This document shows, one piece after another, positions 1 to 33,969 of a DNA stretch of 35,231 nucleotides. The notes beneath the pieces were generated by a model. That model was not told the DNA's origin, ran no database searches, and saw only the letters and a list, made by a program, of their open reading frames with translations. The stretch comes from Bacteroidota bacterium (GTDB taxonomy: Bacteria > Bacteroidota > Bacteroidia > UKL13-3). The translations under genes and the position numbers were made by a program. Where the stretch lies: assembly GCA_947491825.1 (NCBI GenBank), contig CANLLM010000018.1, forward strand, positions 1-35,231, given 5' to 3'. Positions within the stretch are counted from its first letter, which is position 1; each line of letters opens with the position of its first letter.

Positions 1-2
1 TT

Positions 3-200
3 ACAGAAATTATTATGGCTTTAAGTGCTACTATGGAAGGCGACACGACTGTATTTTATTTATCTAAAAAGCTAAAGGATTTACCTGTTAATATCAGTAC
101 CATTTCAAGGGGTATAGCCATAGGTGGGGAGCTAGAGTATGCTGATGAGATTACCTTAGGCAGAAGTATTGCACTGCGTGTTCCTTATGCAGGACACTAG
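3..200 (+). CDS. recR: Recombination protein RecR, C-terminal end (partial)
   Basis: RecR works with RecF and RecO to load RecA at gapped DNA during recombinational repair. Only the last 65 or so residues are visible; the frame is already open at the left window edge, so the gene starts outside. The visible part has the end of the Toprim domain (ATMEGDTT, then a run of short strands) and the conserved RecR ending with [16 protein letters not shown]. The stop TAG is at 198-200. The Met codon at 15 is internal, not the start. No following gene lies on the same strand; the next gene is convergent. Identity is from recognition of the family's C-terminal sequence. Confidence 0.92.
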
Positions 201-204
201 TCTG

Positions 205-230
205 GTTTGAGATTTCGCAAACTAATTTTT
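205..230 (+). terminator. Weak candidate terminator after recR
   Basis: A 5-base inverted repeat, GTTTG at 205-209 and CAAAC at 218-222, is followed by a run of five T at 226-230. The stem is short and AT-rich, so this is only a possible terminator. Confidence 0.25.
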
Positions 231-261
231 GAATTAAATCTGATACAAAAAAGCCGTTTTA

Positions 262-708
262 CTAAAGCAGATATCTTTCATCAAACTCAATTTTATTTTC
301 TTTAAGTAGTTTTACATACTCATCTCTAAAATCAATTTTTTGGTGATGTGTCTCTTGGTTTTTGACATAATCAATTAGCCTGTTCTTTTCTTTAATATTG
401 TATGTAAATGCACCGTAACCTTCTTGCCAGGAGGTAAAATTATGAAACAGTTTTTGGTTTTTGATATGCAGAGCGCTTGATACCTTTATGTCTTTAATTA
501 ATGAAGACAAAGAAACTGTAGGATGAATGTGGGTAAGAATATGTATGTGGTCTTCCACACCATTTATTCGGTATAAATGACAGTTTTTTTTCTCAAGAAT
601 GCCCCAAATAAATCTGAATAACTCCTCTCGGTTTTGCTTTGCTAATGTTGGTTCGCGGTGTTTGGTGCTGAAAACAATTTGATACAGAATTTGTGTATAT
701 GTACCCAT
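262..708 (-). CDS. REP-associated tyrosine transposase (RAYT, IS200-like Y1 family)
   Basis: This is a single-strand DNA transposase of the Y1 HUH superfamily (Transposase_17 type), the group that mobilises REP hairpins. The frame is open from 744, but the family normally begins close to a TYTQ motif, so the Met at 708 is the better start, giving 148 residues. The metal-binding HUH motif is DHIHIL (His54 and His56), and the likely nucleophile is Tyr114 in the conserved YVKNQETHH block. The length is normal for the family and there is no frameshift, so the enzyme could be active. The hairpin-rich stretch at 745-1525 lies directly upstream, as is typical of RAYTs next to their targets. No second transposase and no TnpB gene lie beside it. 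The type of enzyme is sure; its activity on the neighbouring hairpins is inferred. Confidence 0.88.
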   Translation of the reverse strand: MGTYTQILYQIVFSTKHREPTLAKQNREELFRFIWGILEKKNCHLYRINGVEDHIHILTHIHPTVSLSSLIKDIKVSSALHIKNQKLFHNFTSWQEGYGAFTYNIKEKNRLIDYVKNQETHHQKIDFRDEYVKLLKENKIEFDERYLL

Positions 709-787
709 AATTTTAATGGTTAATGGTTGGGTTATCAAATACAATTTATGAATAATTTATAAGAATGGGATATCAAATTTTCACATT

Positions 788-804
788 CAACTCCTACGGA
801 GTTG
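788..804. repeat. REP-like hairpin 1
   Basis: Perfect 7-base stem with a three-base loop: CAACTCC, TAC, GGAGTTG, followed by TTAAATTG. The stem and loop sizes equal those of the hairpin at 857-873, but the stem sequence differs. Confidence 0.7.
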
Positions 805-827
805 TTAAATTGCGTTTGTTTGTATGA

Positions 828-844
828 AGCGGGTGAAACCCGTT
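828..844. repeat. REP-like hairpin 2
   Basis: A 7-base stem (AGCGGGT and ACCCGTT, one G-T pair) around a GAA loop. It is spaced like the neighbouring hairpins but has another stem sequence. Confidence 0.6.
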
Positions 845-856
845 GCTATGCAAATT

Positions 857-873
857 CAAGTCTTACAGACTTG
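857..873. repeat. REP-like hairpin 3, at the left edge of the tandem array
   Basis: Perfect 7-base stem CAAGTCT and AGACTTG with a TAC loop. Its right arm runs into the first 73-base unit. The following units keep a decayed right arm (GACTTG in the second copy, GCCTTG in most others) without the left arm, which suggests that the array grew from a pair of neighbouring hairpins. Confidence 0.65.
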
Positions 874-1452
874 TTGACATCCACGCACGATTAGATCTTT
901 GAAATCGACAAACAACCCCGAATGGGGTTAAATGTTAATAGACTTGTTGACATCCACGCATGATTAGATTTTTGAAATCGACAAACAACCCCGAATGGGG
1001 TTAAATGTTAATAGCCTTGTTGAAGTTCACACACGATTAGATTTTTGAAATTGACAAACAACCCCGAATGGGGTTAAATGTTAATAGCCTTGTTGACATC
1101 CATACACGATTAGATTTTTGAAATTGACAAACAACCCCGAATGGGGTTAAATATTAATAGCCTTGTTGACATCCACATACGATTAGATTTTTGAAATTGA
1201 CAAACAACCCCGAATGGGGTTAAATATTAATAGCCTTGTTGACATCCACGTACGATTAGATTTTTGGAATTGACACAACCTCGAATGGGGTTAAATGTTA
1301 ATAGCCTTGTTGACATCCACGCACGATTAGATTTTTGAAATTGACAAACAACCCCGAATGGGGTTAAATGTTAATAGCCTTGTTGACATCCACGCACGAT
1401 TAGATTTTTGAAATTGACAAACAACCCCGAATGGGGTTAAATGTTAATAGAT
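871..1452. repeat. Tandem array: eight copies of a 73-base unit carrying a REP-like hairpin
   Basis: Units begin at 871, 944, 1017, 1090, 1163, 1236, 1307 and 1380. All are 73 bases except the sixth, which is 71 because two bases are missing just before its hairpin. Each unit carries AACCCC-GAAT-GGGGTT (the sixth with one C changed to T), followed by a tail like AAATGTTAATAG. Units 7 and 8 are almost identical. Units 4 and 5 share ATATTAATAG, and units 1 and 2 share AAATCGAC. Most other differences sit in a stretch of about five bases after the ATCCA near the start of each unit. No open frame crosses the array in a convincing way. Confidence 0.93.
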
Positions 1453-1492
1453 CTAAAAGCAATTTGGGGTATTGTCAAACGACCATGTTCAT

Positions 1493-1507
1493 AACCACAA
1501 CGTGGTT
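1493..1507. repeat. REP-like hairpin next to the 3' end of the ClC gene
   Basis: A 6-base perfect stem AACCAC and GTGGTT around an AAC loop, followed by GAATGTGAATGCG, similar to the tail of the array units. It lies 18 bases past the stop codon of the ClC gene and might help to end or protect that transcript. Confidence 0.6.
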
Positions 1508-1525
1508 GAATGTGAATGCGCTTAC

Positions 1526-33889: not shown

Positions 33890-33908
33890 AATTTCTTATA
33901 ATAAATAT

Positions 33909-33953
33909 GCCACAATTTGTAAGGATAATGAACATCCAATTACAAATTGTGGC
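33909..33953 (-). terminator. Long hairpin between gdh and psd, terminator or attenuator
   Basis: Perfect 14-base arms GCCACAATTTGTAA (33909-33922) and TTACAAATTGTGGC (33940-33953) enclose a loop in which GGAT and ATCC can also pair. On the minus strand the hairpin is followed by an AT-rich stretch but no clean T run. It lies 16 bases past the gdh stop codon. Confidence 0.65.
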
Positions 33954-33969
33954 CTAGTAAAAATAGCAA

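Follow-up and report, generated by a model that had tools for sequence, protein, structure and literature searches.

Y1 proteins have been split by sequence and motif (Quentin et al. 2018, PMC6006769), with class 2 comprising the REP enzymes, which carry Y---NP, and with subclass 1.2 comprising proteins of ~148 aa median length that occur at low copy number in Cyanobacteria and Bacteroidetes; subclass 1.2 is listed there without REP and generally without terminal IS200 secondary structure. For the E. coli enzyme TnpAREP, changes in the loop and upper stem are tolerated and the GTAG is crucial (PMC8266576); known behaviour therefore includes a tolerant stem next to a conserved unpaired tag, and the contrast with the REPs of enterobacteria that a first-pass annotation of the present locus had drawn from its variable stems was overstated.

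The transposase gene and hairpins of the window

The window (the whole stretch analysed, 35,231 nt) is contig C18 of a 2.52-Mb Bacteroidota draft genome that is 88% complete; among the best 80 of at least 379 relatives kept from a one-genome-per-species scan, the nearest named relative is a pond MAG (L210). The transposase gene lies between the end of a gene that we take to be recR, from its sequence and conserved neighbourhood, and a CLC channel gene. Window positions 1-487 (recR to tnpA start) recur at the end of contig C136 (G000:C136, L062, 3242-3727) with 96.7% identity; because recR should be single-copy, this duplication looks like strain variation in the draft genome and not like a second tnpA copy. 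Apart from this 97% duplicate contig end, the genome has a single tnpA gene, and no near-identical full copy of the gene-bearing element was found in it. Upstream of recR in three congeners (L062:1811-1846, L064:480-515 and L094), at a few hundred to ~2000 bp from that gene, a perfect 14-bp hairpin (ACAGGCGACATGTA, 8-nt loop) is conserved that is independent of the transposase array; an inverted repeat at window positions 33897-33965 (26-nt arms, 81% complementary, 17 nt between) is likewise unrelated to the hairpins described here.

The gene, first annotated as an intact RAYT, is indeed intact (ATG at 708, stop codon 264-262), and its protein matches Y1_Tnp in Pfam (PF01797, E 8e-23) and transpos_IS200 in NCBIfam. 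The protein carries the motifs DHIH, WQ and YVKNQETHH; HUH, Y114, Q118, H121 and H122 are invariant across 10 homologues, in which DH[IV]H, WQ and Y---Q--HH are invariant or nearly so. Its AlphaFold model (pLDDT 86.5) has the ISDra2 and IS608 transposases as best fold matches (Foldseek E ~2e-9), with a weaker match to the E. coli RAYT-REP complex 4er8. The traits of subclass 1.2 are all found here (148 aa, low copy number, homologues mostly in Bacteroidota, plus neighbouring phyla), and as judged from motifs, length, copy number and host group the enzyme is a Y1 (HUH) transposase of TnpA-Y1 subclass 1.2 and not a RAYT. Two related copies depart from the pattern: the second copy of G012 (L070, G012:C71) has V in place of D before HUH (VHIH versus DHIH; alignment column 53), and the tnpA of congener G004 (L064, G004:C22, ~2172-2616) has one in-frame TGA and looks broken, with its hairpin array kept.

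The hairpins form units with a common plan: hairpin a, with 7 bp and a GAA loop, is followed by the 11-nt linker AATNTNAATAR and then by hairpin b, with 8 bp and the same loop; a second hairpin a usually comes next. The features of the locus are listed below; R1 is a covariance model built from 16 founding units, and its E-values are rough.

262..708, minus strand: tnpA, Y1/HUH transposase of 148 aa with the subclass 1.2 signature (Pfam PF01797, NCBIfam transpos_IS200, residues invariant in homologues, fold match)
788..804, minus strand: gene-proximal hairpin a2 (CAACTCC), the outer hairpin of the reverse unit (R1 match 778-804)
827..845, minus strand: hairpin b of the reverse unit, stem 828-834/838-844, GAA loop (read on the plus strand), one G.T pair, degenerate stem base (R1 match 827-873)
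846..856, minus strand: 11-nt linker AATTTGCATAG, joining hairpins a1 and b of the reverse unit
857..873, minus strand: hairpin a1 (CAAGTCT) of the reverse unit
870..1450, plus strand: 73-bp tandem repeat, 8.0 copies (Tandem Repeats Finder; eight R1 matches)
1451..1469, plus strand: degenerate hairpin b of the last forward unit (ATCTAAAA-GCA-ATTTGGGG; R1 match 1422-1469)
1493..1507, plus strand: outer hairpin a2 of the forward unit (AACCAC), followed by GAATGTGAATG

Each of the five stem types listed in the first-pass annotation is present (CAACTCC at 788-804, AGCGGGT at 828-844, CAAGTCT at 857-873, AACCCC from 914 and AACCAC at 1493-1507), and the hairpin family is real and beyond chance; but eight of the 12 window hairpins belong to the one 73-bp repeat (94% matches), every copy of which contains a forward hairpin a1 (AACCCC-GAAT-GGGGTT, with a T.G pair in one copy) and the linker AATRTTAATAG. 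Because the AACCCC hairpins are eight copies of this repeat, the repeated flank GTTAAATGTT is mostly one sequence copied in tandem. The array stands only on the upstream side of the gene, the recR side having no unit, and its inner part has expanded eightfold. The flanks of the hairpins at 788-804 and 1493-1507 form an inverted repeat (780-791 / 1505-1516). At the equivalent place in congener G004 the 73-bp unit is present as a single copy, and G005 has a ~98-bp tandem form in which a reverse hairpin adjoins the forward one; the window's 73-bp form appears to be without this reverse hairpin. In both congeners hairpin b of the last forward unit is better paired than in the window.

Covarying units beside the genes of one enzyme clade

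The hairpins are not peculiar to the window. In 12 loci with close homologues (window included), 2-13 perfect hairpins per locus (stems of at least 7 bp, loops of 3-4 nt) lie within 1 kb, against 0.1-0.55 expected; the low score of the window, 2, is due to its stems, most of which have 6 bp. The best 80 relatives of the one-genome-per-species scan, minus those used before, give a further 74 loci in Bacteroidota, Balneola, Ignavibacteria and other Chlorobiota, Calditrichia, Cloacimonadota and one Candidatus Parabeggiatoa. These loci, whose figures describe the nearest part of the enzyme clade and do not extend to its cyanobacterial members, have 394 perfect hairpins within 700 bp of the gene, compared with 19 in block shuffles, and a hairpin density of 3.96 per kb near the gene that falls to 0.61 per kb at 700-1500 bp. 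Although all 74 lie outside its training set, R1 matches 73 of them (E<=0.001), and the hairpins are in this way tied to the enzyme clade, as had been proposed for the window. Orientation is regular as well: where the nearest unit is within 200 bp, upstream units share the strand of the gene in 49 of 57 loci (49:8), and downstream units are on the other strand in 48 of 56 (48:8). The nearest units are mostly 45-60 bp from the gene, and in 36 loci units face inward on both sides. In a record that is named a gammaproteobacterium (L261, Candidatus Parabeggiatoa sp. HSG14), the gene (65%) is accompanied by several units, which points to horizontal transfer or to misbinning of the contig.

The a-linker-b plan is fixed around homologues of 55-89% identity. 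Units occur in inverted pairs. Hairpin a1 is typically YAANYCC-GAA-GGRNTTR and hairpin b is C-N6-T-GAA-A-N6'-G, with ~25 nt before the second hairpin a2. More distant homologues (39-46%) are accompanied by similarly shaped hairpins with other linkers (CATGTNTATAG, AACATCTGTAAC and others), a pattern suggestive of a linker that differs with enzyme lineage. One 41% homologue (L081, G002:C21, 1073-2977) lies within a tandem array of CGACCTC/CGACCCC hairpins with a period of ~245 bp and the linker CATGTNTATAG.

The stems covary. In the alignment of the 16 founding units, in which hairpin a was chosen partly for pairing and hairpin b was not, 97.9% of cells are paired versus 74.7% after shuffling, and 11 of 15 pairs change on both sides. 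Units from the 74 loci outside R1 training contain 506 compensatory cells versus 149 in shuffles, and here all 15 pairs covary. An excess of G-T over A-C mismatches was tried as a guide to the folded strand and dropped, since R1 itself favours such pairs. The same loci supply 115 distinct units with 41 a-stems and 53 b-stems, and in these, with the caveat that R1 matches bias such conservation figures towards the model, fixed and drifting positions can be told apart. Fixed are A2-T16 and A3-T15 in hairpin a, mostly the GAA loops, the starting AA and the AATA near the end in the linker, and in hairpin b the outer C-G and inner T-A pairs; these two pairs of b, like A2-T16 and A3-T15 of a, are as conserved as the linker. 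Drifting with compensation are a1 and a4, less so a5-a7, together with b3-b7 and less so b2, and mean information per column is about equal in stems and linker (1.1 bits). A model-free count of 329 hairpins, 168 of them with a GAA loop, likewise places AA at stem positions -6 and -5 of type-a hairpins and AAT after the stem.

These figures bear on the proposal that the enzyme reads the loop or flank and leaves the stem free to change. The GAA loop and the 3' flank AATNTNAATAR are indeed kept while stems differ; but since particular stem pairs are fixed too, only the others varying with compensation, and stem and linker carry similar information, a flank that is read beside a free stem is the wrong picture. 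The flank is also of little use by itself for finding units, as a genome search with GTTRAATGTNAATR alone gave exact matches in the window only and one-mismatch matches barely above a reversed-pattern control, which makes it too weak a probe.

Dispersed copies and explanations of the locus

The 18 R1 matches (E<=1) in the window's own genome fall into just three intergenic loci, namely the window, C19 and C106; the latter two are inverted unit pairs without a gene and are its only stand-alone copies. Other genomes have up to 43 unit matches (G074). In relatives the commonest stand-alone form reads a2-b-a1 / a1-b-a2 and carries six hairpins, which can all be different from one another (L144 is an example); L147 and L148 have the opposite order, and there are half elements too. 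All 18 examined stand-alone elements lie between genes. A stand-alone element in L143 (G033:C12, ~980-1480) sits inside another repeat (CCGTTGGCTAAAGCCAACGG onward) and has copies of that repeat on either side.

At four intergenic loci congeners differ in whether the element is present, although its ends cannot be read from the empty sites to the base because intergenic sequence drifts. At recR-CLC the window's own genome, G004 and G005 are occupied, and G006 and G002 have an empty site; at C19 the same three genomes are occupied and G006 is empty; at C106 occupation is seen in the own genome and in G005, with empty sites in G004, G006, G002 and G008. The G012:C1 element is present in one of the eight congeners compared, and since it is absent from all seven others that share its flanks, insertion is the simpler reading there.

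Across 64 genomes of the order, all of one family, gene and units are associated. Units occur in all 11 genomes that have the gene at >=50% identity and in 17 of the 53 without a close gene (Fisher p = 3e-5, a value that is only a guide given that the genomes are related and several are incomplete). The link between hairpins and enzyme proposed in the first-pass annotation thus passes the refutation check set there only in part: it is borne out by these 11 genomes and by the copies at C19 and C106, but the 17 genomes that carry units without a close gene show that the two are not strictly coupled. Among these, G068 has 26 matches, G081 23 and G079 22; in G068, which is 81% complete, no gene was found. 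Units without a gene could be explained by loss of the gene once they had spread, by missing contigs or by another enzyme.

Taken together, the window probably holds a REPtron-like locus, in which a subclass 1.2 Y1/HUH gene and its cognate hairpins give rise to gene-less REPIN-like copies, and the hairpin family is most likely a REP/REPIN-like non-autonomous one that is moved by the subclass 1.2 enzyme. In the usual gene-bearing form two units face each other across the gene, and in the stand-alone form two units stand in inverted order with no gene between them. Beyond the partnership of hairpins and enzyme clade the scheme is drawn from homology: the enzyme would bind the folded single-stranded hairpins, as IS608, ISDra2 and RAYTs do, would recognise them by their shape and linker, by the GAA loop and by a small number of fixed stem pairs, and would cut beside them with Y114 and rejoin the ends, so that units may spread in trans as REPIN-like, non-autonomous, gene-less copies. 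Single-stranded DNA would be the folded form, and the conserved unpaired tag would be AATNTNAATAR.

An unlikely alternative is an IS200/IS605-type insertion sequence, with unit-gene-unit as the whole element, the units as its structured ends and the stand-alone copies as deletion derivatives (MITEs); it differs from the REPtron-like reading mainly in the identity of the mobile unit. The inward-facing units on both sides in 36 loci, the outer order that stand-alone L147 and L148 share with the gene-bearing form and the IS transposases among the closest folds would all suit it. However, most examined stand-alone copies have the opposite order (a2-b-a1 / a1-b-a2), near-identical full copies are lacking and the own genome has one gene besides the 97% duplicate contig, the window copy has no unit on one side, and the IS200 motif Y[IV]ENQ is absent from the protein. 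A classical RAYT (class 2 TnpAREP) with GTAG-type REPs would share the REPtron-like layout with inverted hairpins and would explain the E. coli RAYT (4er8) among the fold matches, but the protein has YVKNQETHH in place of the class-2 signature Y---NP and the hairpin feet carry no GTAG/GTGG; class-2 identity was rejected on this motif and on a foot without GT[AG]G, and what the first-pass annotation called a RAYT is extremely unlikely to be one.

Two further explanations dispense with mobility as the main role of the hairpins. They might act as RNA (terminators, attenuators or mRNA stabilisers) and be near the gene for reasons of regulation, their spread being incidental; covariation cannot separate RNA from single-stranded DNA, and all copies are intergenic. 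No terminator-like site was found at the window hairpins, nor any Rfam match for them, and mirror-oriented units on both sides of the gene together with inverted pairs far away are not predicted by a transcript-level role, which leaves this account very unlikely. It is hardly credible, finally, that the enzyme is domesticated and the hairpins are fixed, immobile binding or regulatory sites whose polymorphism reflects deletions: low gene copy number and the array retained in G004 beside a gene with an in-frame stop would agree with this, but dozens of dispersed units are found in several genomes, and the absence of the G012:C1 element from all seven congeners and of C106 from four favours insertion.

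Comparison with known systems

An HUH subclass described without a DNA partner gains a clear candidate substrate, and the units offer a natural record of which bases may change, their fixed and drifting positions predicting what a single-strand transposase reads. Searches keyed to GTAG-type tags miss this widespread family of intergenic hairpin elements. There is about an even chance that subclass 1.2 Y1 enzymes form a third hairpin-mobilising type beside IS200/IS605 and RAYT/REP, with a two- or three-hairpin module (a-linker-b-a) in each DNA half that would be read through its shape, GAA loops, few fixed pairs and linker, with most stem pairs drifting in concert and six different stems possible per element, and with a range spanning Bacteroidota, Chlorobiota/Ignavibacteria, Calditrichota and their neighbours.

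Like subclass 1.2 as described (PMC6006769), the present enzymes have DH[IV]H, WQ and Y---Q--HH, ~148 aa, low copy number and hosts in Bacteroidetes; unlike that description, which lists no REP, covarying units stand beside the gene at 73 of 74 loci. Compared with IS608 and ISDra2 (IS200/IS605, subclass 1.1), the fold, the HUH with a single tyrosine and the structured ends are similar, whereas Y-KNQ--HH stands in place of Y[IV]ENQ, IS-like near-identical copies are lacking, several hairpins occur per side and gene-less copies are common. With the RAYT/REPtron (Nunvar et al. 2010, PMC2817692; PMC8266576) the present system shares inverted hairpins flanking a Y1 gene, a conserved unpaired tag, dispersed intergenic copies, tandem clusters and, in 36 loci, a gene between two inverted units (on one side only in the window itself). 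It differs in a protein without Y---NP and NP(L/V)(R/K)xG, in the tag AATNTNAATAR instead of GTAG, in a module of two or three hairpins, in many stems within one element and in the low copy number in the window's genome.

The stand-alone copies resemble the REPIN (Bertels and Rainey 2011, PMC3116915) in consisting of two inverted hairpin sets and a spacer, gene-less and intergenic, but each half is a-linker-b-a in place of one REP, and the halves may differ in stem sequence. The GTAG/CGTC repeats (Di Nocera et al. 2013, PMC3733652) are already known to have stems that vary next to a conserved tag and to form inverted dimers, heterodimers and tandem clusters; there the tag is another one and stems define families within a genome, whereas here they differ within one element. 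As far as the literature outside subscription papers shows, the new features are that subclass 1.2 has a hairpin partner, that the hairpins form an a-linker-b-a module and that stems are so diverse within a single element.
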